Below, piece after piece: positions 12,678 through 27,985 of a DNA stretch of 31,635 nt (position 1 is the stretch's first letter; every line of letters begins with the position of its first letter). Source of the stretch: a virus; IMG/VR virus record IMGVR_UViG_3300010160_002536, positions 1-31,635 of that record. One strand, written 5' to 3'. Position numbers and translations under genes: made by a program. The notes below the pieces were generated by a model. The model did not search any database. It was not told the origin of the DNA and saw only the letters and a list, made by a program, of their open reading frames with translations.

Positions 12678-12773
12678 TGGTGTAGATGGTAGGATTCGAA
12701 CCTACAAAGGCAGCTAATAGCCTAGCCCTGTTCCCAGCAAGCTGGAGGTCTACCAGATTCCACTCACATCTAC
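12678..12773 (-). tRNA. tRNA-like gene, class II and Leu-like, identity uncertain (non-canonical anticodon arm)
   Basis: Read on the minus strand, 96 bases end in an encoded CCA. The acceptor stem is GTAGATG/CATCTAC (7 bp, perfect) with discriminator A. The T arm is GTAGG-TTCGAAT-CCTAC (perfect). The D region GTGGAATCTGGTAGAC resembles leucine tRNAs, and a hairpin AGG-GCTA/TAGC-(TG)-CCT fits a long class II variable arm. Class II with discriminator A favours leucine. However, I cannot fold a normal 5-bp anticodon stem with a 7-base loop in CCTCCAGCTTGCTGGGAAC; the best options give a 6-base loop (TCCA/TGGG) or a 2-base loop (CCAGC/GCTGG). It may be an unusual or degenerate tRNA. The 5' end coincides with the start predicted from the promoter 12780-12808. 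Confidence 0.72.
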
Positions 12774-12865: not shown

Positions 12866-13861
12866 ATGAACTTTACAGATATTCCATTCAAGAATATTGT
12901 ACGTTTTGGACAGCGTACAATGTTAACCAAACCATTATTTTCTACCAGTTGGATCCTAGGTAGGTTTTGTAACTATAATTGTAGTTACTGTTGGCCCTAT
13001 GCTCGCAGTGACCAAATGGATCACCAACCATTTGAAGTATATAAATCTACTGTAGACGAGATTAAGCGTCAAGCACGAGCCAATGGGTTTAACCAGTTCC
13101 ACTGGTCGTTCAGTGGAGGTGAGCCTACTGCATATAAACATTTACTAGAACTAACCAAATACTTGGATGACGGAGTACAAACGCCCTATCAAAGTATACA
13201 CATGACAACTAATTTGTCGCCAGGAAGTAAGTGGTGGAACACTTGGTGTACTAATACTGAAATGCTACAACGCAGGAGTATCACGGCCAGTTATCACGAT
13301 GAGTTTGCCAAAGAGCAAGAGTTTGGCGACAAGTGTTTACAGTTAATGTATGAACTAGTACATGTTACAATCAATCAAGTAATGGTGCCTGAAAAGTTTT
13401 ATGAGTTATACGACCGCATGGAACGATTTCATAGCCGAGGCATCAACGTTACATTGAAACCGCAAAGCAATCCGTCAGCAACCGCAATTGTAGAGGGGTA
13501 TAATGAGGATATGATATATAAAATGCAAACAGGGTTTCCTCAACGTACCGATGATGAGGAAGTTTATCAAGTGGCGTTATACGATTCACAAGGTGACGAA
13601 TACCTATTTGACCAAGCTGAAAGGTTTAATGCTTTTGGATTTAATGAATTTACCAATTGGACTTGTAATTCGGGTTATCAAAGTGTTATAATAAGAGGTA
13701 ATGAAGTAAAACGATCGTATAGCTGTTATGACGTCCCGTTAGGAACATTACAAGATTTTAAACTTTTTACAACTCCGGTGACTTGCACAACTCCTAGATG
13801 TGTTAGTTCTGCGGATTCAAAAATACCAAAAATAAAACAGGAGAATAATTTTGGAAAGTAA
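12866..13861 (+). CDS. Radical SAM protein with C-terminal cysteine cluster
   Basis: A 331-residue protein. The [4Fe-4S] motif is FCNYNCSYC with C35, C39 and C42 (CX3CX2C), followed by the SAM-contacting strand FSGGEPT (82-88). The middle keeps the barrel pattern (MTTNLSP, TASYHDEF, INQVMVPEKF). The C-terminus has further cysteines (TCNSGY, SYSCYDV, TCTTPRC) that could hold a second iron-sulphur cluster of twitch/SPASM type. It shares this design with the 300-residue protein at 21710-22612. It opens the long plus-strand operon; the next gene starts inside its 3' end. No clear Shine-Dalgarno precedes its ATG. Reaction unknown: radical SAM enzymes make a 5'-deoxyadenosyl radical. Confidence 0.9.
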   Translation: MNFTDIPFKNIVRFGQRTMLTKPLFSTSWILGRFCNYNCSYCWPYARSDQMDHQPFEVYKSTVDEIKRQARANGFNQFHWSFSGGEPTAYKHLLELTKYLDDGVQTPYQSIHMTTNLSPGSKWWNTWCTNTEMLQRRSITASYHDEFAKEQEFGDKCLQLMYELVHVTINQVMVPEKFYELYDRMERFHSRGINVTLKPQSNPSATAIVEGYNEDMIYKMQTGFPQRTDDEEVYQVALYDSQGDEYLFDQAERFNAFGFNEFTNWTCNSGYQSVIIRGNEVKRSYSCYDVPLGTLQDFKLFTTPVTCTTPRCVSSADSKIPKIKQENNFGK

Positions 13862-14261
13862 TTTAAGAACTATTATTAAAACGCTGTCATATCGAACAGC
13901 AGTAGCATTATCAATATTCATTGCATCAATTGTTATGAATTACGGAGCCGGATTTGGATTGAAGTTTGTGATTTTGGTTTACACTTTAGGATCTCTAACA
14001 TTTTACATACAAGAACGACTATGGCTTAGAGTCAAATGGGGAATGGAAGGAATTCATGAGTTACATAAGAGAACTGTTGCCAAAACGATTACATGGAGAA
14101 TTTGGTCGTTGATTGTTTTGTTTGTGTTTGGTATAGTAATGGGTCTACAAAGTTCTGACGCAATTGAGTGGACCATAGTAACTAATGTTTTGTTTATTGT
14201 TGTACATTATGCACACGAACGTGCTTGGAACTTAATTTCTTGGAGAAAGGTATCTGTATGA
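13851..14261 (+). CDS. DUF2061-type membrane protein (two repeats)
   Basis: A 136-residue protein starting at TTG with GGAG seven to eight bases upstream, overlapping the radical SAM stop by 11 bases. Two DUF2061-like repeats are visible: RTIIKTLSYRTAVALSIF to YIQERLW (about 6-58) and RTVAKTITWRIWSLIVLF to VVHYAHERAWN (about 73-127). Each has the K-T-x-x-(Y/W)-R entry, two hydrophobic helices and an E-R-x-W exit, giving four membrane segments. DUF2061 proteins are small inner-membrane proteins of unknown function. Placement between a radical SAM enzyme and an outer-membrane barrel suggests an envelope-directed step. Confidence 0.85.
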   Translation: MESNLRTIIKTLSYRTAVALSIFIASIVMNYGAGFGLKFVILVYTLGSLTFYIQERLWLRVKWGMEGIHELHKRTVAKTITWRIWSLIVLFVFGIVMGLQSSDAIEWTIVTNVLFIVVHYAHERAWNLISWRKVSV

Positions 14262-14830
14262 AAAAATTAATAACAATATTAGCAAGTATGATCTGTATGG
14301 CCACAGCCCAGGCAGGTACTGTTGTGGTTGCGGCAGGCGTGGGCCAAGAAAATATCACTTACCCTAAAACATTTACTGTTGACCTTTATCAAGTAGCAGT
14401 ATCTTATAGATATGATAACGGAGTCTATCTAGGAACAAGTATCCAAAAAGGGTATCCTGAACTTACAACGATACCTTCAGAATCAAGATATGAGGCATAT
14501 ACAGGTTATACCAAAAAGATAGATCAATTCATGCCGTATGCTCAGATAGCAGTTGGCCGCAGAGATATTAATTCTGCAACGGCAACGGATTATAACTACT
14601 ACGCATTGACTGTCGGAACAAAATATGATTTTACATCAAAAATATATGGAGATGTTATGTATCGATATCGTAATAACTATGATACTTCGTCATTATGGAA
14701 GACAAATCTGTATGGTGTCGGTTTAGGTTATAAGATTACTCCAAACGTTAGTGTTGAGGCAGGGTATGCATTAACTTACGGAGATTACGAAAGTAATCAA
14801 TATAGAGTTTTTTTAGTTCGAAGGTTTTAA
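14258..14830 (+). CDS. Outer-membrane beta-barrel protein (Omp/porin-like)
   Basis: Start placed at the ATG at 14258, in an ATGA overlap with the DUF2061 stop and with AAAGG seven bases upstream. The 190-residue product has a signal peptide MKKLITILASMICMATAQAG. The mature chain is a run of amphipathic aromatic strands (TVVVAAGVGQENI, YQVAVSYRYDNGVYLGTSI, YEAYTGYTKKI, YGVGLGYKITPNVSVEAGYA) and ends in phenylalanine (VFLVRRF), the C-terminal aromatic signal recognised by the BAM complex. About eight strands are likely, as in OmpA/OmpX-like or opacity-type proteins. A virus encoding its own outer-membrane barrel might alter receptors or permeability. Confidence 0.87.
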   Translation: MKKLITILASMICMATAQAGTVVVAAGVGQENITYPKTFTVDLYQVAVSYRYDNGVYLGTSIQKGYPELTTIPSESRYEAYTGYTKKIDQFMPYAQIAVGRRDINSATATDYNYYALTVGTKYDFTSKIYGDVMYRYRNNYDTSSLWKTNLYGVGLGYKITPNVSVEAGYALTYGDYESNQYRVFLVRRF

Positions 14831-14831
14831 A

Positions 14832-16016
14832 TTGAAGATTTATCAGAACGGACTTTTACTTAACCTATCGAATAAAGTTTTAGATTATGTAGATAAGTTA
14901 AAAAAGGAACAGGTAGTAACAATCTGTTCGATAGATCACGCTGAGCATATTGCCGCTTATGTCGCTTGGATGACAGTAGGCGGCAATATTTTTATTAAAG
15001 CACCATTTCTTTCAAAAACAGAGTCGTCGTATCTAGACGAGAAAGTTTTAACTTTACCATACAATGACTCTTTGTTTTTTCATACTAGCGGCACTACCGG
15101 ATTGCCTAAAATTGCTGTGCATCAAAAACAGCAGATACAACACGCAATTATTTCGTCTACTACTATCATGGGATGGGATAGTAATGTTAAATTTTTAAAT
15201 CTGTTACCAGCATTTACAGTTGGGTTTTGGAATATGATTATTCCTTCTTTAATAGAACACAATTTTTCCATAGTGCTAGGATCAAGAGAAACAATTCTAG
15301 ATGATCTTAATCAAAATACTAATGTTACTATTATAGTACCAGCACTAATGGACTACTTACGCTTGAGAAATGTTCCTATTGATTTTTCAAAATATAATAA
15401 AGTAGGAATAGGTTCTTCGGCAGTACTTGATCGCCATGTAGAATTCTTTTTTAAAAATAAAGGAAAAGCTCTAAATCACATGTATGGAACTACGGAAGTA
15501 GGTACTCCTATATTACATCGATTATCAACAAACTCTGACGATTTTGCAAGATACTTAAATTTAACTTCAACTCAGTCTGCTGAGTTTAAAATAATGAATA
15601 AAGAGTTATGGATCAAAGGGCCAACTCTGTGTGCTAATATACAAGACTTTGGACTAACTGATGGTTGGTTTAATACTCACGATTTGTGGGATCAACAAGA
15701 TAACATGATTAAATTTATAGGCAGGTCAAATGACATTGTTAAATTAAATGGATTTAAAGCTAGTTTATTAGCCATTGAAACAATTGCCGAAGACGATGCG
15801 GAGTTGGGAGAGGCCGTTGCAGTTGTCAGAAACAGTTTAGGCACAGATTGGATAGAATTATTTTTTACTAATAAGAACGCTGTTACTAATAAAACTGCCA
15901 TGAATGAAATATTTCTTAAAAAGTTACCAGACTTCAGTGTTCCTAGAAAATTTACATACATAGATGCTGTTCCACGAAATGCAATGGGCAAAAAAACAAG
16001 AGCAATTGACTTATGA
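14832..16016 (+). CDS. ANL-superfamily adenylate-forming enzyme (AMP-binding)
   Basis: A 394-residue enzyme beginning at TTG, two bases after the barrel gene stop and with GAAGG nine bases before it. The ANL motifs are in order: HTSGTTGLPK (84-93, P-loop), MYGTTEVG (217-224), DGWFNTHDLW (277-286, D284), FIGRSNDIVKLNGFK (295-309, hinge), and C-terminal RNAMGKKTR (382-390) with candidate catalytic lysine K387. The N-terminal subdomain before the P-loop is short (about 80 residues), making it compact relative to typical 500-600-residue acyl-CoA synthetases. It would activate a carboxylate as acyl-AMP. No carrier protein or acyltransferase is seen nearby, so the acceptor is unknown. Confidence 0.92.
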   Translation: MKIYQNGLLLNLSNKVLDYVDKLKKEQVVTICSIDHAEHIAAYVAWMTVGGNIFIKAPFLSKTESSYLDEKVLTLPYNDSLFFHTSGTTGLPKIAVHQKQQIQHAIISSTTIMGWDSNVKFLNLLPAFTVGFWNMIIPSLIEHNFSIVLGSRETILDDLNQNTNVTIIVPALMDYLRLRNVPIDFSKYNKVGIGSSAVLDRHVEFFFKNKGKALNHMYGTTEVGTPILHRLSTNSDDFARYLNLTSTQSAEFKIMNKELWIKGPTLCANIQDFGLTDGWFNTHDLWDQQDNMIKFIGRSNDIVKLNGFKASLLAIETIAEDDAELGEAVAVVRNSLGTDWIELFFTNKNAVTNKTAMNEIFLKKLPDFSVPRKFTYIDAVPRNAMGKKTRAIDL

Positions 16017-16633
16017 AAATTGATACAGAACACTTACACTATTGGATGCAAGCTATTCGACAAAGTCCAGATCCTATTCGGACCATGGATGCCTTTTGGT
16101 CAGGACAACTTAAAAGTAAAGAGTGGCTAATTAATTCGTTAGAGTTAGTTGTTCATCCTCAAGTTGATTGTACATTGCCTAAGCCTTTTTCTATAGACAT
16201 TCACGGTGGGTGGGTTGGTGTTCTTGCCAGCATGATGTTTCAAAGTAGGATCCCGGTAGCTAGTATTCGCAGTATTGATATAGATCCTAGTTGTGAATCT
16301 ATTGCTACTATGATGAATAAGGGTGAGGAAATATTAGGAAAGTTTCGAGCAATTACATCGGATATGTGTGCCATAAGAAGTGATGCCGATATTATTATTA
16401 ATACTAGTTGTGAACATATTACACAAGATCAATATGATTTATGGCTTAGTGGACACCCTCAAAATAGTTTGTTAGTTCTTCAAAGCAATAACTATAACAT
16501 TCCCGAACATGTGCGCATCTCTAAAGATTTAGAAGAATTTAAAGAGCAATGCCAACTTGAAATATTATGGGCTGGAGAATTAGAACTACCGTTATACAAA
16601 CGATGGATGGTTATAGGACATAAAAATGTATAA
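16013..16633 (+). CDS. Class I SAM-dependent methyltransferase-like protein
   Basis: A 206-residue protein with a Rossmann-like pattern: SIDIHGGWVGVLASMMFQ (65-82) corresponds to the SAM-binding glycine loop, IRSIDIDPSCESI (92-104) to the acidic end of strand two, ITSDMCAI (119-126) to the third motif, and ADIIINTSCEHI (130-141) to strand four. The family assignment is by fold pattern; the target is unknown. The ATG overlaps the ANL gene stop (ATGA), and the next radical SAM gene starts eight bases before its end. Adjacency to a radical SAM enzyme and an adenylating enzyme suggests a shared pathway. Confidence 0.76.
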   Translation: MKIDTEHLHYWMQAIRQSPDPIRTMDAFWSGQLKSKEWLINSLELVVHPQVDCTLPKPFSIDIHGGWVGVLASMMFQSRIPVASIRSIDIDPSCESIATMMNKGEEILGKFRAITSDMCAIRSDADIIINTSCEHITQDQYDLWLSGHPQNSLLVLQSNNYNIPEHVRISKDLEEFKEQCQLEILWAGELELPLYKRWMVIGHKNV

Positions 16634-17609
16634 ATTAGATCAAATTAAAGAAATTCATTTAGAATTAACAAACAAATGTCAAGCCAGTTGTCCGATGTGT
16701 CAACGTAATATACAAGGCGGCATTGCAAACCCTTGGTTAATAGAAACAGAAATTACTATAGACCAATTCAAAAAATGGTTTCCTATTCCCTTTATCAAAC
16801 AGCTAACCAAATTATTCATGTGCGGTAACTCAGGCGATGCCATAGTTGCTAAAGATACACTTAAAGTATTCCAGTATGTTAGAGAGCATAACTCAAACAT
16901 AGAACTAGGGTTGCATACTAATGGCAGCGCACAATCAGAAAAATGGTGGGAACAATTGGCCAAATTGAATGTGTTTGTTACATTTGGTATTGACGGGTTA
17001 GCTGATACACATTCATTGTATCGAATCGGAACTAATTTTGATAAGATAATTAACAATGCCACAGTCTTTATTCAGTCTGGTGGCCTAGCAAGATGGCACA
17101 TGTTAGTGTTCGAACACAACAAACATCAAATAGATGAATGTAGGAGTTTAAGTGAAAAGTTAGGATTCTCAGAATTTGTACAAAAGAATTCTGCTAGATT
17201 CCGAGATGGGCACTTGCCAGTTCTCACCAAAGAAGGCAAGACTAGCCATATAATTTACCCTACCGAAAGAAGCATTGATATATCTAAGAAATTGTTTTCC
17301 ATCAAATTGGAAGAAACAAAAAAAATAAATTGTAAAGTTAAAAAAGATAAAAGTTTGTTTGTAGGAGCAGACGGTAGTGTTACTCCGTGTTGTTGGTTAG
17401 ATTATACTGGAACAACACCCAACACCTTTAGTCTAGTTGATTACAAAGACCAAGGGTTCGTTAATCCAAATCTTAATACACAATCATTTGAAGATATATT
17501 TGAAAGTCAATTTTTCAATCGTATTGAAGAAACGTGGTCTAATAAACCCTTGCGAGCATGTACTAAACAATGCGGCGAAGTAGACAAGGCCAATGAACAA
17601 TTTAGATAA
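16626..17609 (+). CDS. Radical SAM protein with twitch/SPASM-like C-terminus
   Basis: A 327-residue protein. The cluster motif is KCQASCPMC, C18, C22 and C25. The usual GGEP motif is replaced by FMCGNSGDA (64-72), the C-G-N-x-G-D variant seen in some subfamilies. The barrel continues with LHTNGSA and VTFGIDGLADTHSLYR. The C-terminal region has INCKV, a strand LFVGADGSVTPCCWLDYTG and RACTKQCG, an arrangement of cysteines for an auxiliary Fe-S cluster. It differs from the N-terminal-twitch radical SAM genes that follow. It overlaps both neighbours. Substrate unknown. Confidence 0.92.
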   Translation: MYKLDQIKEIHLELTNKCQASCPMCQRNIQGGIANPWLIETEITIDQFKKWFPIPFIKQLTKLFMCGNSGDAIVAKDTLKVFQYVREHNSNIELGLHTNGSAQSEKWWEQLAKLNVFVTFGIDGLADTHSLYRIGTNFDKIINNATVFIQSGGLARWHMLVFEHNKHQIDECRSLSEKLGFSEFVQKNSARFRDGHLPVLTKEGKTSHIIYPTERSIDISKKLFSIKLEETKKINCKVKKDKSLFVGADGSVTPCCWLDYTGTTPNTFSLVDYKDQGFVNPNLNTQSFEDIFESQFFNRIEETWSNKPLRACTKQCGEVDKANEQFR

Positions 17610-18870
17610 CGTATGGTGTCCTATCCCATGGAGTCATGTTGCTGTTAAAAGTAACGGATATCTACGGGTATGCTCTCATAGCCAAAGTGGCGGCAATAAA
17701 AATACGTTACTTGAAAAAGATGGAAGACTTTTAAGAATAAATGATATTGATCAAGCATTAAATTCTGATACTTTAAAAGATGTTAGAATAAAATTTCTTA
17801 ATAACGAATGGCCGGAACAATGCCGGCGTTGTAAACTAGAGCAAGCTGCCGGAAAACGTAGTCGCAACCAATGGGAAGCGACCATGTATGACTTTACCAG
17901 AGAGGATGCTGAACGAATCACACTGCTGGACGGAACTGTGACCGAACAACGGGTACTATCAATGGATTTAAGGCTAGGTAATAAATGTAACCTGCAATGT
18001 GTTATGTGCTATCCTGGCGAAAGTAATCAGTGGAATAAGATACAAGAACAAATTACAGGATCTAAAGTGTTCATGATAGATCATGTTACTTATAGCACAG
18101 ACGGTCACGAACATTTTGATTGGTGCAATCAGCAAGACTATTATCAACTGTTAACTGACCATTCAGAGTATTTGCAAAAAATCAAATTTGGCGGCGGTGA
18201 ACCGTGGCTTGTTAAACAACACTTGATATTATTAAAAAATTTAATAGAGCAGGGATTTTCCAAAAATATTGAATTAGAGTACAGCATCAATGTCACAGTC
18301 ATTCCTAAAGAATTCCTAGATGCTATCAGTCAATTTAAATTTGTTAAATTATGTTGTTCCATTGATGCGTATGGCGAAGTTAATGAGGCCATACGTTATC
18401 CAACTAAATGGAACGTAATTGAAAAAAACTTAGATTTTTTAGATGGCATGCCCGATCATTTTTCTATCTTCACTAGCACAACTTTATCAATTTTAAACAT
18501 TGAGCACTTTGTTACGTGGATGCAATGGTTAGAGAGCAAACAATTTAAAAAGATTAACCTTAATACGTTTTCTGATATAGTAAGTCATCCTGTGATGAAT
18601 CCAAAATATTTAAATTTACGATTAATGACTGCCAAGCAACATTTGGAAATATTTAAATATCTTAAAGAACAAACGGATAACCACAGAATATTGACAATGC
18701 TAACCCAATGGGAAGAGTATTCTAAAACCCTTCCTATGACTGACAAAGAAATTGTGCAAGGCAGAAAAGATTTATTAAACTTTTTTATAAAGATGTCTGC
18801 AATACAAGGTAAAGATTGGAAAATAATTTTCCCCAGATGTCATAGGATGATAGTAGAATGGAACGAGTAA
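17593..18870 (+). CDS. N-terminal-twitch radical SAM protein (copy A)
   Basis: A 425-residue protein with the auxiliary-cluster (twitch) domain at the N-terminus. WCPIPWSHVAVKSNGYLRVC provides C9 and C27, and EQCRRCKLEQ provides C77 and C80. The radical SAM core then begins with LRLGNKCNLQCVMC (C132, C136, C139) and KFGGGEPWLVK (198-208), followed by CCSIDAYGEVNEAIRYPTKW, the family's characteristic S-I-D-(A/G)-x-G-x-x-(N)-x-x-I-R-Y-P. This domain order corresponds to the 'twitch domain-containing radical SAM' group of phages and bacteria. It overlaps the preceding radical SAM gene by 17 bases. The substrate is not known for this group, to my knowledge. Confidence 0.92.
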   Translation: MNNLDNVWCPIPWSHVAVKSNGYLRVCSHSQSGGNKNTLLEKDGRLLRINDIDQALNSDTLKDVRIKFLNNEWPEQCRRCKLEQAAGKRSRNQWEATMYDFTREDAERITLLDGTVTEQRVLSMDLRLGNKCNLQCVMCYPGESNQWNKIQEQITGSKVFMIDHVTYSTDGHEHFDWCNQQDYYQLLTDHSEYLQKIKFGGGEPWLVKQHLILLKNLIEQGFSKNIELEYSINVTVIPKEFLDAISQFKFVKLCCSIDAYGEVNEAIRYPTKWNVIEKNLDFLDGMPDHFSIFTSTTLSILNIEHFVTWMQWLESKQFKKINLNTFSDIVSHPVMNPKYLNLRLMTAKQHLEIFKYLKEQTDNHRILTMLTQWEEYSKTLPMTDKEIVQGRKDLLNFFIKMSAIQGKDWKIIFPRCHRMIVEWNE

Positions 18871-19712
18871 AAATAGCTCCCGAATATGATGCTAAATGGT
18901 TAGAAGTTGAACGGCCTCAAGCATTATGCGATAATCATTTAGAATCATTATTTTCAAAAGTAATGACCGGCTTCGGCGGACTTGAAGTCGACCACAGAAT
19001 AACTGCCAACACTACATTTAAAGAAAAGGCTAGTAAATGGATACTTGATTCAAGATTAAATCATCTATCAGGCTTTAACAATTTTAATCGTGTGGACATT
19101 ATAAACGGGTGTACTCAATTTATAGATAATATCTACATGCAAGGACCACCTCAAGTTATTGTTGGAGATTATCGGTACCATGAAAGACTAGGCAACCAAG
19201 CAACATATCCAGGTACACTAAAAGAAAGCATACCTTTAATTATTGCAATGCCATTTCCTAGCACAGGTGCAGTACATAATCAAATGACGGAGATATTAAA
19301 TGAAGCACAAGACAAAAATGTTGATGTACATGTGGATGGTGCTTGGCTTACTTGTTGCCGCGGAATTGACTTTGATATAGGTCATCCTGCAATCAAATCC
19401 GTGGGCATAAGTTTGAGCAAGGGATTAGGTCTTGGCTGGAACAGAATCGGCTTACGTTGGTCAAAACATCTGTTGCCTGACAGTATCAGTATAATGAATG
19501 ACTTTCACATGGAATTGAGAATGGGAGCTATCGTTGGGAACTATATACTTGATAATGTTCAGTCAGATTATCTTTGGAGTTCTTACGGAGATTTAAATGC
19601 TAAGATCTGTAAAGATTTTAATCTGACTCCGTCTAATGCAATACATATGGCGTTTAATCAAACTGGCAATTTTGTTGGACTAAGTCCGTTATTACGATAC
19701 TTAATGAAATGA
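18858..19712 (+). CDS. PLP-dependent fold-type-I (aminotransferase-like) enzyme
   Basis: A 284-residue protein with the aminotransferase signature. VDVHVDGAWLT (156-166) carries D160, which would contact the PLP ring nitrogen. SVGISLSKGLGLGWNRIG (181-198) carries K188, the Schiff-base lysine, with a spacing of 28 residues as in this fold. A substrate/phosphate loop may be in MPFPSTGAVHNQ. It is short compared with usual 350-450-residue members, so the N- and C-terminal small domain is reduced. No truncation or frameshift is apparent: the start overlaps the previous radical SAM stop by 13 bases and the end is a normal stop. It could supply or modify an amino group; reaction unknown. Confidence 0.78.
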   Translation: MERVKIAPEYDAKWLEVERPQALCDNHLESLFSKVMTGFGGLEVDHRITANTTFKEKASKWILDSRLNHLSGFNNFNRVDIINGCTQFIDNIYMQGPPQVIVGDYRYHERLGNQATYPGTLKESIPLIIAMPFPSTGAVHNQMTEILNEAQDKNVDVHVDGAWLTCCRGIDFDIGHPAIKSVGISLSKGLGLGWNRIGLRWSKHLLPDSISIMNDFHMELRMGAIVGNYILDNVQSDYLWSSYGDLNAKICKDFNLTPSNAIHMAFNQTGNFVGLSPLLRYLMK

Positions 19713-19740
19713 AACTAAGCATGGTACACAAAATATAAAA

Positions 19741-21039
19741 ATGTCAAATCAAAGTAATACATTCTGTCCGCTACCGTGGATACATCTTGCTACCCGGCCA
19801 AACGGCGATGTTAGAGTATGCTGTACAGCAAATGCCAGCGGTGCGGGTATGGTTGATGTTAAGGATGCAGGTCTTGTAACAGGCATGAATCTTAAAACGC
19901 ACACTATTACAGAAGTTTGGAATAGTGAATTTATGCGCAATGTGAGATTACAAATGCTGGATAATAAAATTCCAAGTAGTTGTACCAAATGTTTCCAGGA
20001 AGAAAGCCAAGGTATTAAAAGTAAGCGTAATTGGGAAACAATAGTGTGGAAAGATCGATTGAATATTGATAGTATTGTATCTCAAACCGAGGCCGATGGA
20101 AGTCTTCCAGTTAACATTCCGTACTTTGATTTACGATTAGGAAATATGTGCCAACTCAAGTGTGTGATGTGTAGTCCTCATGACAGTAGTAGTTGGATCA
20201 AAGAATGGAAGATACAGTATCCAAAATATAAGACTATAGATCTTAAACAAGATCAAGGCTGGGATTTAACGTTTGATTATACATGGTATCAAAAAGGCAG
20301 TTTCTTAGATACCATGAAAGACCAAGCTAGTAACATTCGAGAGTTATATTTTGCTGGCGGCGAGCCTTTAATTATACCCGAACATTATAAAATACTAGAG
20401 TTCATTATAGAATCCGGAGTTGCTAAAGATTGTGTTTTAAGATACAACAGTAACGGATTAGAACTTCCAGAAAAATTATTTGACTTGTGGAGTAAATTTA
20501 AACAGGTAAAATTTAATTTTAGCATTGACGCTGTGGGAGAGAAGAACGATTACATTAGATATCCAAGCAAGTGGTCAACTATTATTAAGAATCTTCAACG
20601 ATTAGATGATACACCGGATAACATTATTGTAAACATAGCCTGTGCTGTGCAATTATTAAACATAATGAATTTACCGGATCTAGTACAATGGAAACGCAGT
20701 ATGAATTTTAAGAAGATCAACATGCCACCGTACGGTGCAGGATTGATAGGTACTCATTTGGTTTATCTTCCTAGCTATCTTAGTATTAGGGTTTTACCTA
20801 TACACATTAAAAAAGAAATAGAATCTCAAATAACTTATTTTTGTTCTAAAAACACACACGACTTAGAGTTTATGTCAAATTCGTATGGCTTGCAACGGTG
20901 GATGGGAATAATTAAATATATGATGTCCGAAGATTGGTCTAGCAAACTTCCTTCAACCATTGAATATTTAGAAACATGCGATGCCCAACGCGGCACTAAT
21001 TTTAGAAAAATATTTCCAGAATTAAGTAATTTAAGATAA
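19741..21039 (+). CDS. N-terminal-twitch radical SAM protein (copy B)
   Basis: A 432-residue relative of copy A. The N-terminal FCPLPWIHLATRPNGDVRVCC gives C9 and C27/C28, and SCTKCFQEESQ gives C81 and C84. The core has DLRLGNMCQLKCVMCSP (C137, C141, C144), AGGEPLI, and SIDAVGEKNDYIRYPSKW. It is closer by eye to the copy at 26708-27985 (FCPRPWIHQMVRPDGGIKMC) than to copy A. A 28-base gap with no obvious ribosome site separates it from the PLP gene, the largest gap in this operon. It is followed 17 bases later by an oxygenase-like gene. Confidence 0.92.
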   Translation: MSNQSNTFCPLPWIHLATRPNGDVRVCCTANASGAGMVDVKDAGLVTGMNLKTHTITEVWNSEFMRNVRLQMLDNKIPSSCTKCFQEESQGIKSKRNWETIVWKDRLNIDSIVSQTEADGSLPVNIPYFDLRLGNMCQLKCVMCSPHDSSSWIKEWKIQYPKYKTIDLKQDQGWDLTFDYTWYQKGSFLDTMKDQASNIRELYFAGGEPLIIPEHYKILEFIIESGVAKDCVLRYNSNGLELPEKLFDLWSKFKQVKFNFSIDAVGEKNDYIRYPSKWSTIIKNLQRLDDTPDNIIVNIACAVQLLNIMNLPDLVQWKRSMNFKKINMPPYGAGLIGTHLVYLPSYLSIRVLPIHIKKEIESQITYFCSKNTHDLEFMSNSYGLQRWMGIIKYMMSEDWSSKLPSTIEYLETCDAQRGTNFRKIFPELSNLR

Positions 21040-21056
21040 TCCAAAGAGAACAACAC

Positions 21057-21713
21057 ATGACACAAGATGAAATTGAAAGAGGACTGTTGTTTAACAGTCT
21101 TGCTAACATGGGGCAATATATTAAATTACAAATGTGTGTTGACCCTAGTAAGTTAGAGCATGATTTAGAAAAATTTAAGAACAATTGGTGCCCGTATAAT
21201 GTAAAAAAAGATAGCCACAACAACAGGTGGGGACTGCCTGTTACTAGCCACACTGGTGATGTCATGGACAACTATCACCTTAACAGTTTTGGCTATATGC
21301 AAGAGTATCACACTGAAGAAATGCGTGAAGATAATTTTATAACTCCTACAGAAGTGTATCATGCTCTTCCACAAATTCAAGAAATTATAGATATGTTCAC
21401 ACCTGACATTGGTCGTGTGCATTTTTTAAAAATAGGTGCTGGCGGTTATTTCCCTCCACATATTGATCACCCTGGCTATTCTCCAGAGTATATTAGGTTA
21501 ATTATTGTATTTGGGAAATGCAAGCCAGAACATTTTGTGCAAATGATCGATGGCAAACCAGTTTACCTTGATCCTGGATATGTATACTTTGTTAATTTTC
21601 AACTTGAACATAGTGTTTTTAGTTTTACAGATAGCGTATATTCAATGATACTTACTGTTAAAATGACTGAAAAGAATTTCAATACTATTCTAAAAAATAT
21701 GATGAGTCAATGA
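21057..21713 (+). CDS. Aspartyl/2OG-Fe(II) hydroxylase-like protein
   Basis: A 218-residue protein. RVHFLKIGAGGYFPPHIDHP (120-139) contains H135-x-D137, and YFVNFQLEHSVFSFTDS (177-193) contains H185, which together fit the H-x-D...H iron facial triad of cupin-fold oxygenases. The strand pattern between them (IRLIIVFG, YLDPGYVY) supports a double-stranded beta-helix. The N-terminal 110 residues are helical. Substrate unknown; the family includes protein and peptide hydroxylases. It is tightly linked to radical SAM genes on both sides (the next gene starts four bases before its end). Confidence 0.8.
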   Translation: MTQDEIERGLLFNSLANMGQYIKLQMCVDPSKLEHDLEKFKNNWCPYNVKKDSHNNRWGLPVTSHTGDVMDNYHLNSFGYMQEYHTEEMREDNFITPTEVYHALPQIQEIIDMFTPDIGRVHFLKIGAGGYFPPHIDHPGYSPEYIRLIIVFGKCKPEHFVQMIDGKPVYLDPGYVYFVNFQLEHSVFSFTDSVYSMILTVKMTEKNFNTILKNMMSQ

Positions 21714-22612
21714 GCGAATTAACATATTACGATCCTGCCAAGGCAAATTGGTTTTTAGTTAGTTGGACCTTGGGAAATAAATGTAACTACAAATGCAGTT
21801 ATTGCCCAACATTTTTGCATGATGGGTCATCAGGGTGGCCTGATTGGGCTACTGTCAAACAATTTGTAGAAAACTTTGATTATGCAGGTAAAGAAGTTTG
21901 CTATCGTATAAGTGGTGGAGAGCCTACTCATTGGAAACATTTTCTTTCGCTTGCTAAACTAGTTAAAAGCAAAGGTCATATTTTTAGTTACCTAACTAAC
22001 GGAAGTCAAACAGTAGAGTACTATCAACAATTGTCGCAATATACTGATGGCATGATATTAAGCTATCATCCAGAGTATGCTAATATAAATCATTTTGTTT
22101 CTATCTTACAAAACGTTGATGGGCTTAAAGGAGTTAATGTTATGTTTACTCCAGAAAATTTTGACAATATGTTATCCATAGCTGAAACTTTGTATAATGC
22201 ATCACCCACTGTTGCAATGTGGCCAAAAGTAGTACTTGATAAACAAGAAGGTTCTTATACTAACAATCCTGGAAATTTCTCAGTTGCCCAACTTAAAATA
22301 ATTAAAGAATGGAAATTTTTACGTAACTTACCAGACCAAAAATTACATAGAGGCAAACTGTTACTAGATGGAGTTGAAATCAGTGCCAACGAATTAATTA
22401 TGTCGGGTAAAAATAATCATGCAGGATGGAAGTGTTGGGCAGGCATCGATATGATCTGCGTGGATCATTGGGGAGACATCTATCGTAGTGATTGTTTGTA
22501 CGGTGGCAAGATTGGAACTCTTGAACAATATATACTACCTACAGATCCGATTGTATGTGGAAATACTAAGTGTACCTGCCTAAGTGATATTTATTTAAAA
22601 AAAGTTAGTTAA
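21710..22612 (+). CDS. Radical SAM protein, sister of the 12866 gene
   Basis: A 300-residue protein: KCNYKCSYC gives C25, C29 and C32, and RISGGEPTHWKHF (66-78) is the SAM-contact motif. Shared with the 12866 protein are W-(T/I)-L-G-x-x-C-N-Y-x-C-S-Y-C and G-G-E-P-T. The second half has WKCWAGIDMICVDHWGDIYR, DCLYGGK and a final VCGNTKCTCLSD cluster suited to an auxiliary Fe-S centre. It closes the plus-strand operon, and its stop overlaps by 18 bases the end of the minus-strand radical SAM gene. Start coupled to the oxygenase gene (ATGA). Confidence 0.91.
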   Translation: MSELTYYDPAKANWFLVSWTLGNKCNYKCSYCPTFLHDGSSGWPDWATVKQFVENFDYAGKEVCYRISGGEPTHWKHFLSLAKLVKSKGHIFSYLTNGSQTVEYYQQLSQYTDGMILSYHPEYANINHFVSILQNVDGLKGVNVMFTPENFDNMLSIAETLYNASPTVAMWPKVVLDKQEGSYTNNPGNFSVAQLKIIKEWKFLRNLPDQKLHRGKLLLDGVEISANELIMSGKNNHAGWKCWAGIDMICVDHWGDIYRSDCLYGGKIGTLEQYILPTDPIVCGNTKCTCLSDIYLKKVS

Positions 22613-23686
22613 ACTTTTGTGTAACATTGGTATTGTTTCTTCAATACTAGTTTTCATAGCAAAATCCTGCATTGTTATTAATTTTAATAAATTTGTTGGG
22701 TCATAACTAGGACCAACTAACAATCGTTTTAGTTCATCATCTAATAACCCATTATTATCTAACTCCATGATATAATCTTTTGGCAAACTATAAATGGATA
22801 ACTCCGGCGGCCCTTTCAGCAAATCAATATAAATTGGTATGTTATGATGAGCCGCCCATTGTTTTACTAATAAGAACTGATGCAAATTTAATGCCTGTAA
22901 TGTAAAAGCTATGTTAAGATGAATTTGCGGATTAGTACTAGCAAGTTCAATCCATTTTTCAACTACTTTAAATACCTTCTCCCAAGAACACCCGGTTCGT
23001 ATATAATTACACAACTCATCGATGCCATCAATGCTTAATGCTATTGATAATCTTTTAAATTTTAATAGATCAGAAACTACAGATTTAGGAAACGCTGTGC
23101 AATTAGTACTTGTACGTAAAGAAATATTTTCTAAAGATCCTTTATTTTTAATTTCTTGTATCATCAATTCTAAATTATTACCAATGAACGGTTCACCGCC
23201 TTGTAATTTTATCTCGTTTACGTATTTAAAATCTAAAGATTGTAATATACTATGCACCGATCTATTAGCATAGTCATTCAATTGATAATACCGATATGTT
23301 TTTAAATCTGGATGCTTGATAATTAACTTTTCCCATTTGCTACTAGCAGGTGGGCCGCACATTTTGCAAGTTAAATTACATTCATTTGCAAAACTAATAT
23401 CTAAAAATTCTAATTGATTATCAACACCTGTGAATGTTTGATTGTACCGCATACGTGGACTACCTTTGCCAAGCTCTTCATCAAGTCTGCAACCCTCGCA
23501 GCCTGCGTGCCATCCAGTTTCCATTGCAGTTTTTACATCTCTAAGAAACGTAAGATTATATGTATTCCAATCTAAGCTACCTGCTTCAATTGTATTTCCG
23601 CTAAGTTTGTTAAACACACAGCACGGCCTAAATCTAACATCTGTATCAACACATAGGTGGTTGCTTAACGCATTACATTTTGGCAT
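22595..23686 (-). CDS. N-terminal-twitch radical SAM protein (copy C) coupled to beta-propeller genes
   Basis: A 363-residue protein, the shortest of the four N-twitch copies. N-terminal cysteines: C4, C12, C22/C23 (FRPCCVF) and GCEGCRLDEE (C63, C66). The core has FANECNLTCKMCGPPASS (C103, C107, C110), KLQGGEPFIG, and LSIDGIDELCNYIRTGCSW. The ATG overlaps the stop of the upstream propeller gene (TAATG), so it is translated with structural-looking genes rather than with the plus operon. Its 3' end overlaps the plus-strand operon end by 18 bases. A role in modifying the operon's own proteins is plausible but unproven. Confidence 0.91.
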   Translation of the reverse strand: MPKCNALSNHLCVDTDVRFRPCCVFNKLSGNTIEAGSLDWNTYNLTFLRDVKTAMETGWHAGCEGCRLDEELGKGSPRMRYNQTFTGVDNQLEFLDISFANECNLTCKMCGPPASSKWEKLIIKHPDLKTYRYYQLNDYANRSVHSILQSLDFKYVNEIKLQGGEPFIGNNLELMIQEIKNKGSLENISLRTSTNCTAFPKSVVSDLLKFKRLSIALSIDGIDELCNYIRTGCSWEKVFKVVEKWIELASTNPQIHLNIAFTLQALNLHQFLLVKQWAAHHNIPIYIDLLKGPPELSIYSLPKDYIMELDNNGLLDDELKRLLVGPSYDPTNLLKLITMQDFAMKTSIEETIPMLHKSLTNFF

Positions 23687-24849
23687 TAGAATAGTACCTC
23701 AAAGTTTATGTTGTAATCTTTATCTAGTGTTATTAAGCAATGCGCCTGTGTCACTACTTGATAAGCTAACGTGTATATTAACCCATTGTATTCTATAGGT
23801 CTTCCTAAAATATATTCAGGAAATGATTTTCTAAATATAATAGTTCCAGTTTTATCTATAGCAACTATGTCGGCATTAGGCGTTCCTGTAGGAAAAAATA
23901 ACGCAACATTATTATAAACTATACCGCAACGAAATCGATATTTCCCTCCAAAAGATTGTCCAATATCAAATGTAGTGTGTTCGTAAGTAGTTGTATTAAA
24001 CACAAGACCGTAGTTAGCGTCGCCATCATCTTTGTGCCCGTAAGGCACTGCTATAATAATATCGTCAAGTAGCACTCCCACATTGTATTTTTTCATGAAT
24101 GGCGGCAAATTCAACTCCACTAGTTCTGTACTATCTGTAATAGTATCTAATACTAGCATATGGCGCAGATCGCCGCCACGACCAAATGGCAATGCAAATA
24201 ACTTGTTACCCACCTGTATAAAATCACTGTACTTACGTTTACTTAAAGGAAGGTTATTAACTTTAATCATTGTGACTTCTTCAGTATTGGGATTGAATTT
24301 TAAAATACTATCATAATCTAAAGTTTCGCCGCGTGGCGGACTATAATAGTTTCCATTGGCAAACACGCACCCCATGTGACGTTTTAAAGAGTCATTTGGC
24401 GGGATTGGTATTTGTTTAACTGAACCGTCTTTAATAAACAATGCAAAATTAATAATACTATATCCTAACGGTGCCGAGAATGCAGTCATGCCGTCAGATG
24501 CTATATTATAAAATTGTCCAGTTACATTACTATCTATTGAATGATATTTTGCTTTAATATTAGCAGAAAAATCTAATTCTAAAATTGTATTGAATTCGTC
24601 CCATATCGCATACGGTGCAAAAAATACGCTGTTGCCTATACTTGCCATAGAGTTATATTTGCTAGTAGCAGGCGGAGTGTCTACATCAACCCATACTACT
24701 TCTCCGTCCTTGTAAATCAGTACACGACTGTAATCTTTACACTTGTCTGTACAAAACGGTGGACTGATCAAATAGTTGTCATGTTTAAATAGAACCAAGT
24801 GTTTAATTGTGGCTTTTTTGTAGTAGTCTTCGAACGATTTATAAGTCAT
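23686..24849 (-). CDS. Beta-propeller-like repeat protein (copy 2)
   Basis: A 387-residue protein made of about eight repeats of roughly 48 residues. Each has a strand ending in a proline-aromatic/basic-glycine turn followed by a hydrophobic strand, for example YYSPPRGETLDYDSILKFNP, LFALPFGRGGDLRHMLVLDT and IIAVPYGHKDDGDANYGLVF. The repeat count and length fit a seven- or eight-bladed propeller. No signal peptide; few cysteines. It is a paralogue of the next upstream gene and overlaps it by 11 bases. Position after a tail-fibre-like gene suggests a virion adhesin or receptor-binding protein, by inference. The repeats resemble Kelch/NHL-type units only in general geometry. Confidence 0.78.
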   Translation of the reverse strand: MTYKSFEDYYKKATIKHLVLFKHDNYLISPPFCTDKCKDYSRVLIYKDGEVVWVDVDTPPATSKYNSMASIGNSVFFAPYAIWDEFNTILELDFSANIKAKYHSIDSNVTGQFYNIASDGMTAFSAPLGYSIINFALFIKDGSVKQIPIPPNDSLKRHMGCVFANGNYYSPPRGETLDYDSILKFNPNTEEVTMIKVNNLPLSKRKYSDFIQVGNKLFALPFGRGGDLRHMLVLDTITDSTELVELNLPPFMKKYNVGVLLDDIIIAVPYGHKDDGDANYGLVFNTTTYEHTTFDIGQSFGGKYRFRCGIVYNNVALFFPTGTPNADIVAIDKTGTIIFRKSFPEYILGRPIEYNGLIYTLAYQVVTQAHCLITLDKDYNINFEVLF

Positions 24850-26053
24850 TTAAATCCAATGTCTTAATAATTTTCTCAGTCTTAGTATCAAACACTAACA
24901 CTGTTTGGAATGATTCGCTTTCTCCATACGGCATTGCAAATATAACATCGTTCACAATGCAACAGGCATTATATTTTTCAATAGTTGTGTTGTCAGTAAA
25001 GCACTCACTTACATCTACAGTATAATAACTATCATCATTGGAATCGACTACCAGTATTTCAGCAAGATCTCCTGTGAGTTTTAAATCAGCATCCGGGTCG
25101 CACACACAACCTCCCCGTGGAATATAGTACACTTTTCCTTGACTGTTTTCTATGCCTGCAAAGTATTTTTTAGTTTCCTTGGTAACATCCAAATCAATAG
25201 TGGTTATACCATTATCTATGATTAAAAACTTACTCCATGCAGAATGATGCCCTGCTGGAGGAAAGTATAATTTATTATTTGCAGTTTTAACATGAGTAAA
25301 GTACTTGCGGGTAGTGCCAACAATTCCAGTACGTTCACAACTCCACTCGCCGTTCTTGTTCTTTAACATGTAGTCAAAGTTGTCGTCGTATCCATACGGC
25401 GCCGCATAGATAGTATCGTTTAGCAGTGCAATCGTAGTAAATTTCATAGATGTTTCTGAATGTTCTTTATATAAATTAGAAAGATCAGACAACTTAATAG
25501 TTCCATCATCGCAGTTATATTCTATCGCAAAATTAAAAGGCGTGTAAGCACCACGTGGCGCGGCGTAAATTTTATTTTTATAAAGAACGCTCTGATGCCA
25601 TTTTTTACAATCATTTATTGGAACTGGTATATATTTTAGTTCGGTAGTTCGTGTTATTAAATCTATAACAAGTAGATAGTCTAATGGCTTATCTTCGCCG
25701 TACGGCAGCGCATAAATTTTGTTGTTGTACACATGCCCCTGTACATATTTTCCAAGAGTGTCTCCAACGCCAGCTGGCCAATCTATATTAATATAGCTAA
25801 CCGTTTTGAGCAAAGTATTGTATACTAATACACAACCTTCTCCATAAGGTAACCAAAATATTTCATCTCCTACCGTAATACCAAAAGTCCATTTTTCACT
25901 ACTAGAATTGACAGTCAACGATATTTTAAGAATATCATATGTAACAGGATTGATAGCTAACATATAATTTAACGATGCCGATAACCCGTATGGGGGAACG
26001 TAAATAATACCGTCTAAACCCACTGTAGGATAACTGAAAGATTGTGGAGTCAT
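24839..26053 (-). CDS. Beta-propeller-like repeat protein (copy 1)
   Basis: A 404-residue paralogue of the preceding entry. Start chosen at the ATG at 26053 (MTPQSFSYPTVGLDG), one base after the structural-protein stop; in-frame upstream starts (ATG at 26080, GTG at 26089) would overlap that gene. About eight repeats near 50 residues recur: IYVPPYGLSASLNYMLAINP, YALPYGEDKPLDYLLVIDL, YAAPRGAYTPFNFAIEYN, YAAPYGYDDNFDYMLKN, YFPPAGHHSAWSKFLIID and FAMPYGESESFQTVLVFD among them. The consensus is (Y/F)-A-x-P-(Y/R)-G followed by an aromatic and L/I-rich strand. One repeat carries two close cysteines (GGCVCDPDADLK). Likely a rigid propeller; virion location inferred from the neighbour. Confidence 0.79.
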   Translation of the reverse strand: MTPQSFSYPTVGLDGIIYVPPYGLSASLNYMLAINPVTYDILKISLTVNSSSEKWTFGITVGDEIFWLPYGEGCVLVYNTLLKTVSYINIDWPAGVGDTLGKYVQGHVYNNKIYALPYGEDKPLDYLLVIDLITRTTELKYIPVPINDCKKWHQSVLYKNKIYAAPRGAYTPFNFAIEYNCDDGTIKLSDLSNLYKEHSETSMKFTTIALLNDTIYAAPYGYDDNFDYMLKNKNGEWSCERTGIVGTTRKYFTHVKTANNKLYFPPAGHHSAWSKFLIIDNGITTIDLDVTKETKKYFAGIENSQGKVYYIPRGGCVCDPDADLKLTGDLAEILVVDSNDDSYYTVDVSECFTDNTTIEKYNACCIVNDVIFAMPYGESESFQTVLVFDTKTEKIIKTLDLNDL

Positions 26054-26054
26054 A

Positions 26055-26618
26055 TTAAATTTGGTATAGTGGCAGGGCATAGCTAACACCCTGATATATT
26101 GTTTTTACATACTTAGTTGGAATAGGATTACTTGGAACCACAGCTTCGTCGGTTATTGTTAAATTCCCAGTTTCAATATTTCCAGCTATTTTAAGATTGC
26201 CCTTTGAATCAACAACAATCTTTATTTCTAAAGACTTTTCGTTTCCTACTACAATCAACAACTCAGTTGGAATTGATATATCTCCTGCTTGATAGTTATC
26301 TGCTACTTTAAACATCACACTGCCGCATAACGGAGTCTCAAGATGATTGTAACCCATACTGTCACCAGCTTTGATTCTACCGTATACTTGCAATCCACCT
26401 AGCACATCGCCTGCTTCTACAGGGAGTTTATTTTGTGAGTCGCCTCTTGATTTTGTAAGTCCAAGATAGATAGGACTGCCGCCGTCAAATGCTCCATCGA
26501 TATAGATCAACTCGCTATTATCGTTGCCTTGTATAATAACATTAGAAAGAGTATGTTGAAGAGTCGACGTTCCAGTTTCAACTTCGCATATGATAGGTTT
26601 GTTTAGAAGTTGCTCCAT
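26055..26618 (-). CDS. Tail-fibre-like phage structural protein
   Basis: A 187-residue protein with patterns seen in aquatic phage fibre and neck proteins. A mid-region VLGGLQVYGRIKAGDSMGYN is followed by SIPTELLIVVGN, then a beta segment IKIVVDSKGNLKIAGNIETG, and a C-terminal motif KYVKTIYQGVSYALPLYQI, where 'Y-(Y/A)-L-P-L-Y' is a common ending of such proteins. No signal peptide or enzymatic motif. It is first in the minus operon with the two propeller genes and the radical SAM gene. Its ribosome site is weak (AGGA about 13 bases upstream). Confidence 0.78.
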   Translation of the reverse strand: MEQLLNKPIICEVETGTSTLQHTLSNVIIQGNDNSELIYIDGAFDGGSPIYLGLTKSRGDSQNKLPVEAGDVLGGLQVYGRIKAGDSMGYNHLETPLCGSVMFKVADNYQAGDISIPTELLIVVGNEKSLEIKIVVDSKGNLKIAGNIETGNLTITDEAVVPSNPIPTKYVKTIYQGVSYALPLYQI

Positions 26619-26674
26619 TCGTTAATTGTGTCCTATAGCTGTTAAGTAAAAATGTTTCATAGCACTATTTACTT

Positions 26675-26682
26675 GATAAATA
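26675..26682 (+). promoter_or_regulatory. Possible late promoter box in divergent gap (GATAAATA)
   Basis: The 89-base divergent gap 26619-26707 contains GATAAATATTCC, one mismatch from the T4 late consensus TATAAATA, about 26 bases before the ATG of the radical SAM gene at 26708. The string ATAAATATTC is shared with the other divergent gap (29893-29956). No sigma70-type consensus was found here. Chance matches are common in AT-rich DNA, so support is modest. Confidence 0.3.
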
Positions 26683-26707
26683 TTCCGCCAATAAGGATAT
26701 TGATTTT

Positions 26708-27985
26708 ATGGATTCTAAAAGAAAAACGTTCTGCCCTAGACCTTGGATACACCAAATGGTCAGACCAGATGGCGGCATAAAAATGTGTTGTCTTGCAAAA
26801 GAAACACCTGAGTTCAATGCCGGTGAAGGTAATCTTAAAGAATCATTTAATGGCGATCTCGTTCGTAGAGTTAGAAAAAAAATGCTTAACGGAGAGTGGG
26901 ACGAATCCTGTTATCCTTGTAAAAATCTCGAAGATCTAGGAATAGAAACTGCTAGAATGCACGATGCTGTCGAATGGCATGATAGATTCAACTACGATAC
27001 TGCTGTTGCGACAACCAAAGAAGATGGTTCTGTAGACTACGGGCCAAGATATTGGGATTTGAGATTTGGTAACTTTTGTAACATCAAATGTAGAATGTGT
27101 GACCCTAGTGCTAGCCATTCTTGGTATGAGGAATGGGCCGACTATCGTAAAGAAGACGGGTTTCATGATGACGGAAAATTTATTAAATTAGTAAGGAATG
27201 ACAAAGGCCGATTGGTAACGAACCACTATGATTGGCCATCGAAACAAAATTTTTGGGACCAGATGAAAGGAACTATTGATACAACTGAATATATTTTCAT
27301 GGCTGGTGGCGAGCCTTTTTTGATAGAAGAACAAGAACAGATGTTAAAAGAATGTATAGAACAAAATAGAGCAGACAAAATAACTTTAGCCTACAACACC
27401 AACCTAACAACTTTGCCTGATAGGTTGGTAGAATTATGGAAGAAATTTAAATTAGTCAGAGTAGGCGCTAGCATCGACGGTATGGGTGCTGTTCTTAATT
27501 ATCAACGATATCCTTCAGACTGGAATTCTATACTTAAAAATCTACATAAGCTCGATGAGATATGTAGAGAGAATTCTAATATTTTAGGCGCAATAACCGC
27601 CACAGTTACAACATCCAATGTTTATCAATTTCCTGAATACATGTGGTGGAAAGTAACTAAAAGTGGATTTACAAATATTAATAATTTTAAAGAATTTCCT
27701 GTAGTCATGCATCACGTAGCATATCAACCAGAAACTGCAAATATTCAGATATTTCCTAAAGACATAAAAGATAAAATACGAAATCATTACAATAATTATA
27801 TAGAAAAATTCGAAGGAAATAGTTCAGCTATCTCTATATTGAATAATATTTTAACTTTCATGGATGCTAAAGATATGTCTGAACACATGGACGAGTTTAT
27901 AAGATACACCAAATACTTAGACAAATCTAGAGGACAAGACTGGACCATGGTGGTTCCAGAATTAGCCGAGCTTATGCAACGATAA
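26708..27985 (+). CDS. N-terminal-twitch radical SAM protein (copy D)
   Basis: A 425-residue protein, with N-terminal FCPRPWIHQMVRPDGGIKMC (C9, C27/C28) and SCYPCKNLEDLG (C68, C71). The core carries DLRFGNFCNIKCRMCDPS (C124, C128, C131), FMAGGEPFLIEE, and ASIDGMGAVLNYQRYPSDW. It is separated from the plus operon by the inserted minus-strand operon but is a close relative of copy B. An AAGGAT ribosome site lies nine bases before its ATG. The C-terminal part of about 120 residues is helical, with an end RGQDWTMVVPELAELM that resembles copy B's RGTNFRKIFPELSNL. Substrate unknown. Confidence 0.92.
   Translation: MDSKRKTFCPRPWIHQMVRPDGGIKMCCLAKETPEFNAGEGNLKESFNGDLVRRVRKKMLNGEWDESCYPCKNLEDLGIETARMHDAVEWHDRFNYDTAVATTKEDGSVDYGPRYWDLRFGNFCNIKCRMCDPSASHSWYEEWADYRKEDGFHDDGKFIKLVRNDKGRLVTNHYDWPSKQNFWDQMKGTIDTTEYIFMAGGEPFLIEEQEQMLKECIEQNRADKITLAYNTNLTTLPDRLVELWKKFKLVRVGASIDGMGAVLNYQRYPSDWNSILKNLHKLDEICRENSNILGAITATVTTSNVYQFPEYMWWKVTKSGFTNINNFKEFPVVMHHVAYQPETANIQIFPKDIKDKIRNHYNNYIEKFEGNSSAISILNNILTFMDAKDMSEHMDEFIRYTKYLDKSRGQDWTMVVPELAELMQR

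Follow-up and report, generated by a model that had tools for sequence, protein, structure and literature searches.

The window analysed here, a linear IMG/VR record of 31,635 bases (IMGVR_UViG_3300010160_002536) from an uncultured bacterial virus, contains seven radical S-adenosylmethionine (rSAM) genes together with adenylating, pyridoxal 5'-phosphate (PLP)-dependent, methyltransferase and oxygenase-like genes; this region is very probably a conserved, phage-specific tailoring island. Its core, the rSAM genes R1 and R2, a methyltransferase gene (MT) and an rSAM gene of the R4 type in the order R1-MT-R2-R4, recurs in related viral loci, and the conserved core and the multi-enzyme composition together suggest one pathway. 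The product is a more tentative matter; we favour, at somewhat less than even confidence, a sugar- or amino-acid-derived group that is tailored for the virion or the cell surface.

Radical-SAM genes and partner enzymes of the island

A search of the record with PF04055 returned exactly seven matches, all above the curated cut-off (32.5–48.3 bits; E 2e-14 to 1.5e-9). Each lies in an open frame, and together they span 15.1 kb of the 31.6 kb contig; genes and strands are those of an earlier note on this DNA, which had reported seven rSAM genes in about 15 kb, with CX3CX2C motifs mostly followed by GGEP. Both statements stand: CX3CX2C is present in all seven proteins and GGEP in six, R2 having GNSGD instead. 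By tree and architecture, the seven genes appear to fall into three lineages; the assignment is an outline rather than a resolved phylogeny, with group support in the tree ranging from 0.53 to 1.0. Lineage A, short proteins whose auxiliary cysteines are C-terminal, consists of R1 (12866..13861, plus strand; PF04055 E 7e-12) and R5 (21710..22612, plus strand; PF04055 E 7e-10); R1 has CX3CX2C at position 35 and GGEP, both kept in 51 of 51 full-length homologues, and the same two motifs of R5 are kept in nine of nine. Lineage B has N-terminal twitch cysteines and comprises R3 (17593..18870, plus strand; 288 bits), R4 (19741..21039, plus strand; 418.5 bits), R6 (22595..23686, minus strand; 199 bits) and R7 (26708..27985, plus strand; 361 bits); these four (199–418 bits), and not R1, R2 or R5, exceed the 170-bit cut-off of the model NF033640 (N_Twi_rSAM), whose name describes a domain layout and implies no function. 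Lineage C is R2 (16626..17609, plus strand; PF04055 and PF13186), with a C-terminal SPASM domain. SPASM matches lie above the cut-off in R2, R3 and R4, and just below it in R7. Sequence searches of the PDB with R1, R4, R5 and PROP2, a propeller-like protein described below, gave marginal matches or none.

The partner enzymes named in the earlier note (an ANL adenylating enzyme, a PLP enzyme, a methyltransferase-like and an oxygenase-like protein) were likewise recovered, each on evidence of a different kind. The methyltransferase (MT; 16013..16633, plus strand) has no Pfam match; its model, built from 34 homologues (the A1 alignment) at a mean confidence (pLDDT) of 89.6, retrieves methyltransferases in Foldseek, best ScNTM1 (TMq 0.67), and the predicted structure is that of a class I, SAM-dependent Rossmann methyltransferase fold. 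The PLP enzyme (18858..19712, plus strand), also without a Pfam match, was modelled from 18 homologues (pLDDT 87.2) and retrieves NifS, IscS and aminotransferases; K188 (in SLSKG), D160 (in HVDGAW) and H158 are invariant in these homologues, so that the protein is predicted to be a minimal fold type I enzyme with the Schiff-base lysine and the pyridine-binding aspartate in place. The ANL enzyme (14832..16016, plus strand; PF00501, E 1.4e-14) is short at its N-terminus, and its active-site motifs TSGTTGLPK, YGTTE and PRNAMGK were seen by inspection; since a close copy occurs elsewhere only in the identical contig L008, it is present in this strain only and was rejected as a core member and treated as accessory. 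The oxygenase OX (21057..21713, plus strand), which overlaps R5 by 4 bases, has no Pfam match of its own; it is 37% identical to Mosig_00081 of the Pelagibacter phage Mosig, which weakly matches PF05118 (Asp_Arg_Hydrox) and is annotated so, and OX is accordingly listed as an AspH-like, 2-oxoglutarate (2OG)-Fe(II) oxygenase.

The plus-strand operon (12866-22612) is compact, its genes overlapping or nearly touching. Where the island starts, G+C drops to about 0.35 from values of about 0.40, and coding switches to the other strand close to a tRNA-Pro (GGG) gene (12678..12773, minus strand; ARAGORN), which forms the border between a minus-strand block and the island; this tRNA is predicted at 96 nt, above the usual size, and as the exact island border it is a possible recombination point. 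The left half of the window encodes a DNA ligase, a ClpP-like protease and a MazG-like protein, consistent with a phage; the window, a fragment, has no capsid gene. A scan of the window for promoters and terminators found sites in about the numbers that shuffled sequence gives.

Conservation of the core in related viral loci

R1 has at least 599 relatives in IMG/VR, the best 80 at 78–100% identity. Of 35 distinct IMG/VR loci that carry R1 and extend at least 8 kb beyond it in the downstream direction, 34 have MT, 33 have R2 and 27 have the R4 type (an R3/R4/R7-type rSAM), and most have 4–7 further rSAM-like open reading frames (ORFs) within 10 kb; R1 or PLP served to retrieve the loci, so the presence of these two is by construction, whereas that of MT, R2 and R4 is not. 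Clustering of the ORFs of long loci, together with pieces of two longer contigs, gave the same picture, with MT, R1 and R2 near-universal and the R3/R4/R7 type in most. A variant block R1-MT-R8-R2-R4-OX-R5, accompanied by the propeller-like pair PROP1-PROP2, recurs in the seven loci fetched by PROP2. Twelve related viral contigs carry 6–17 PF04055 genes each, and the clustering of rSAM genes is therefore above chance.

The proteins appear to be maintained as working enzymes. In each rSAM group examined, all full-length homologues retain CX3CX2C, a check rather than an independent discovery, since the groups R1 to R9 were gathered by similarity. Between the window genes and their nearest relatives, dN is about 0.06–0.35 (0.5 for R7, which is 45% identical to its nearest relative) and dS about 0.7–2.4 or saturated for most genes, values that indicate purifying selection on the island. 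The dedicated pathway that the earlier note had proposed is thus supported: related contigs keep the genes, their neighbours and their order instead of scattering them, and the catalytic cysteines are invariant rather than degraded.

Around the core, island composition differs strongly between close relatives, with accessory members that vary and swap. Such turnover would also be expected if independent rSAM morons with unrelated roles, for example viperin-like defence, had piled up in a hypervariable hotspot, and R1 and R5 do match the viperin model NF038283 weakly (35.6 and 38.5 bits). These scores lie far from the model's cut-off of 180 bits, and viperin-type defence was rejected; the fixed core R1-MT-R2-R4, the overlapping genes, the co-conservation of OX-R5-PROP1-PROP2 and the joint recurrence of several island enzymes in a distant cultured phage argue against unrelated morons more generally, which we regard as the least probable of the explanations considered.

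One long related contig, of 220,867 bases (G002), encodes a Gp23 capsid protein 72% identical to the one in a Vibrio jumbo phage; by this protein the 220 kb relative, at least, appears to be T4-like, an assignment that comes from the one long relative with a capsid gene. Its regions 14500-19700 and 153000-178700 hold 17 rSAM matches, among them four tandem N-terminal-twitch genes near the start and a B12-binding, KedN5-like enzyme (L107:17454-19454). Related loci also contain an rSAM protein with an HMPTM zinc ribbon (L043:1768-2934; cluster 44), which resembles the models for TrsS and tetraether lipid synthase and is possibly a pterin- or lipid-type enzyme. Pentein/amidinotransferase-like proteins recur in related islands (L039:10588-11805, L043:6083-7162, L052:13857-14840), with an HCxT motif recognised by eye and no Pfam match in the two that were tested. 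Upstream of R1, 21 loci share a protein of about 172 amino acids (cluster 11; L013:9049-9561 and relatives) whose N-terminus is variable and rich in Ser, Thr and Gly and whose C-terminus hardly varies.

Counterparts in cultured phages and cells

Multi-rSAM islands have already been seen in T4-like phages, and the window is a variant of these; the earlier note, which had set its concentration of rSAM genes against the single genes of marine phages, missed such precedents. For the T4-related Campylobacter phages CP220 and CPt10, Timms et al. (2010; PMC2853527) reported 11–12 rSAM proteins, with a putative amidinotransferase and an interchangeable cluster of five rSAM genes. In our counts of PF04055 matches, some of them below the curated cut-off, CP220 has 11, K566 six, KVP40 five and Mosig two. 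CP220 and CPt10 resemble the island in their many clustered rSAM genes, interchangeable between close relatives, and the CP220 protein CPT_0081 groups near lineage A in the rSAM tree; pentein/amidinotransferase-type proteins, annotated in CP220 and seen by eye in related loci, are not in the window. Unlike the window, CP220 has no N-terminal-twitch rSAM above the cut-off and has other partner enzymes, and profile searches found no MT or PLP homologue in it. Its five-rSAM cluster adjoins baseplate lysozyme and PAAR genes, followed by two nucleotide-diphospho-sugar transferases.

In the Pelagibacter phage Mosig EXVC030M, a single island adjoining vrlC holds distant relatives of five window enzymes: PLP (27% identity; A2 profile E 5e-12), OX (37%), R2 (31%), MT (29%; A1 profile E 2.5e-13) and a lineage A rSAM (28%). 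The Mosig rSAM sequences fall beside lineages A and C. The same island encodes an epimerase and, unlike the window, a DegT/StrS sugar aminotransferase and a carbamoyltransferase; the phage has no N-terminal-twitch rSAM, and one of its two PF04055 matches lies above the curated cut-off, against seven in the window. According to a study of pelagimyophages, VrlC is a baseplate component, and rSAM cassettes of these phages lie inside a host-recognition cluster with tail fibres and lipopolysaccharide glycosyltransferases (PMC7029224). The Vibrio phages KVP40 and K566, with five and six rSAM matches, share with the window rSAM genes of the N-terminal-twitch lineage B, yet no KVP40 match reaches the NF033640 cut-off; profile searches found no MT homologue in either phage and no PLP homologue in K566, and the KVP40 rSAM genes have a QueC-like protein and NadV as neighbours. 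Within the portions of PMC2853527 and PMC7029224 consulted, no product of the phage rSAM enzymes is shown.

In single-protein searches of 50,697 INPHARED phage records, R1 and PLP had no relative, and the only relative of MT was that in Mosig. Among 84,980 GTDB species genomes, PLP had one relative, in a single Nitrosopelagicus metagenome-assembled genome (L133), where an amino-acid-kinase domain (aspartokinase) is fused in frame to the island PLP domain (L133:8846-10687); the fusion is absent from 200 further genomes of the same order, and as a single occurrence that may be a chimera it was not used as evidence. The GTDB scan for PLP used two peptide patterns, a method that favours close relatives and could miss distant cellular ones, and "virus-only" is therefore a provisional term. 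With this proviso, the core R1-MT-R2-R4 and its exchangeable enzymes could form a virus-only pathway to a new radical-tailored group for virion or surface decoration, diversified by rSAM swapping, a proposal that we hold tentatively.

These searches bear directly on the idea that the enzymes are auxiliary to host metabolism, supplying a host cofactor or metabolite during infection, as Timms et al. (PMC2853527) suggested for CP220 and CPt10. Some relatives of the island do carry ordinary metabolic genes, such as those for a phosphate-binding protein and a desaturase. However, auxiliary metabolic genes normally resemble host genes, whereas cultured phages have no close relative of R1 or PLP, the latter having its single cellular match, and island composition varies strongly between close relatives; an origin of the island as host-derived auxiliary metabolic genes was rejected on the R1 and PLP searches, and a role in host metabolism is unlikely. 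The earlier note's list of substrates (a larger protein, a nucleotide or sugar, a host metabolite) is not narrowed by the data to any one of them. A surface building block is preferred to a host metabolite because the distinctive enzymes are without close cellular relatives in the data searched.

The surface reading draws on gene neighbourhoods, in that the Mosig island adjoins vrlC, the CP220 cluster adjoins baseplate genes and sugar transferases, and relatives of the window carry an NAD epimerase, a GT25 glycosyltransferase and heptose-type genes (the latter two about 15–20 kb from the island) and an Mtd_N gene. This Mtd_N-domain, tail-fibre-type gene (L124:3822-5057) lies about 10 kb from the propeller pair of a 116 kb relative, close to a short ANL-type gene (L124:6730-7374). 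Glycan enzymes and receptor-binding or baseplate genes thus recur in three phage groups, which points to decoration of a surface or virion. The window would hold one version of a recombining biosynthetic island of T4-like phages, with the core R1-MT-R2-R4 and variable rSAM, PLP, AspH-type oxygenase and activating (ANL or PP-loop) enzymes. The rSAM enzymes would carry out carbon-centred radical steps (C-H functionalisation, epimerisation, formation of C-C or C-S bonds), one shared amino-acid- or sugar-derived building block would be tailored by the methyltransferase, the PLP enzyme and the oxygenases, and the ANL or PP-loop enzymes would activate a carboxylate; the finished group would be joined to the phage receptor-binding apparatus or to the surface glycan of the infected cell, where it may change adsorption, superinfection or recognition, and swapping of accessory rSAM and oxygenase genes would vary it.

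Several observations weigh against such a surface product. The distance from the island to structural genes varies, the left flank in the window is the ligase/ClpP/MazG block rather than virion genes, and no family match in the window identifies a glycosyltransferase, an epimerase or a tail-fibre gene; the Mosig homologies are at 27–37% identity. Moreover, twitch/SPASM rSAM enzymes mostly act on peptides, which favours modification of a protein.

Alternative substrates and further island genes

The main rival, possible though less probable than a surface group, is direct post-translational modification of a phage or host protein by the twitch/SPASM rSAM, AspH-type and methyltransferase enzymes, with no classical leader peptide of the ribosomally synthesized and post-translationally modified peptide (RiPP) type. 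SPASM or twitch domains occur in five of the seven rSAM proteins, and the best fold match of MT is, weakly, a protein alpha-N-terminal methyltransferase. Enzymes of the AspH family are present where the island gene set runs on to the contig end (28019-31633): two match Asp_Arg_Hydrox (PF05118), AspH1 (28753..29487, plus strand; E 2.8e-9) and AspH2 (29957..30700, plus strand; above cut-off), and a third, AspH3 (31100..31633, plus strand), cut by the contig end, is assigned by similarity and conserved position. Targets could perhaps be the propeller pair or a small protein at 26055. PROP1 (23686..24849, minus strand; a weak Kelch match only) and its paralogue PROP2 (24839..26089, minus strand; about 25% identity by sequence comparison) are conserved neighbours of the island; they stand beside OX-R5 wherever found, PROP1 adjoining R5 or lying one gene off, and PROP1 orthologues are 46–82% identical. 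As substrates of the core the propellers were rejected, the PROP genes being missing from most core-bearing loci. The small protein (26055..26618, minus strand) has a conserved place between an R4-type gene and MT2; its composition is tail-fibre-like, an impression to which no family match corresponds. Protein modification is made less probable by the PLP, ANL and PP-loop enzymes, which suit a small molecule better than a protein, and by the lack of a PqqD/RRE domain in 12 related records and of a precursor-sized gene in the plus operon. The gaps of that operon range from -17 to +28 bases, confirming both the 28-base maximum of the earlier note and, for the plus operon, its claim that no precursor gene fits; with no larger gap and no PqqD-type recognition domain (PF05402) found in the 12 phage records, a RiPP with a local precursor was rejected, and a precursor encoded in trans is possible.

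PLP and rSAM enzymes are also known from DNA hypermodification, and together with PP-loop enzymes they might modify phage DNA bases, by thymidine hypermodification or a 7-deazaguanine type of pathway. A QueD/PTPS-family gene occurs in eight of the 12 related contigs (G004, G006 to G012), and a PP-loop protein with weak QueC similarity in 27 loci; the latter, however, fails the NCBIfam QueC model, no rSAM protein comes near the QueE cut-offs, GTP cyclohydrolase I (FolE) is absent from the 12 related records, and base-modification pathways are smaller and less variable than these islands. Without FolE or a QueE-grade match, 7-deazaguanine modification was rejected; a literature search on phage rSAM enzymes and DNA hypermodification found nothing relevant. 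The tests made here leave DNA modification and host metabolism less likely, and we consider base modification improbable, marginally more so than a metabolic role.

The island region has further genes. Downstream of R1 lie a small DUF2061 membrane protein (13851..14261, plus strand; PF09834 above cut-off) and an outer-membrane beta-barrel-like protein (14258..14830, plus strand; PF13505 E 1.2e-5, just below cut-off), its start shifted to the ATG at 14258 by inspection. MT2 (28019..28768, plus strand), methyltransferase-like by eye only and without a family match, is conserved together with the small protein at 26055 and AspH1. Towards the contig end are a small APH-like phosphotransferase (29458..29892, minus strand; PF01636 weak, below cut-off) and a small protein of conserved position (30681..31115, plus strand) with a CxxGxxRS-type motif seen by eye and no Pfam match. 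A further 2OG-Fe(II) oxygenase (PF13759) is encoded outside the island, at 6923-7534.

Radical-SAM enzymes perform chemistry that few other enzymes manage, and phages seldom carry many of them; here an abundant phage group gives 15–30 kb to a conserved multi-rSAM pathway. Key enzymes of the island are nearly unseen in cellular genomes, which suggests a new biomolecule and a rich source of new radical enzymes. The uncultured phages are now tied to the cultured phages Mosig, KVP40/K566 and CP220, and through this link laboratory phages offer a way to test the old question why certain T4-like phages accumulate so many rSAM genes.

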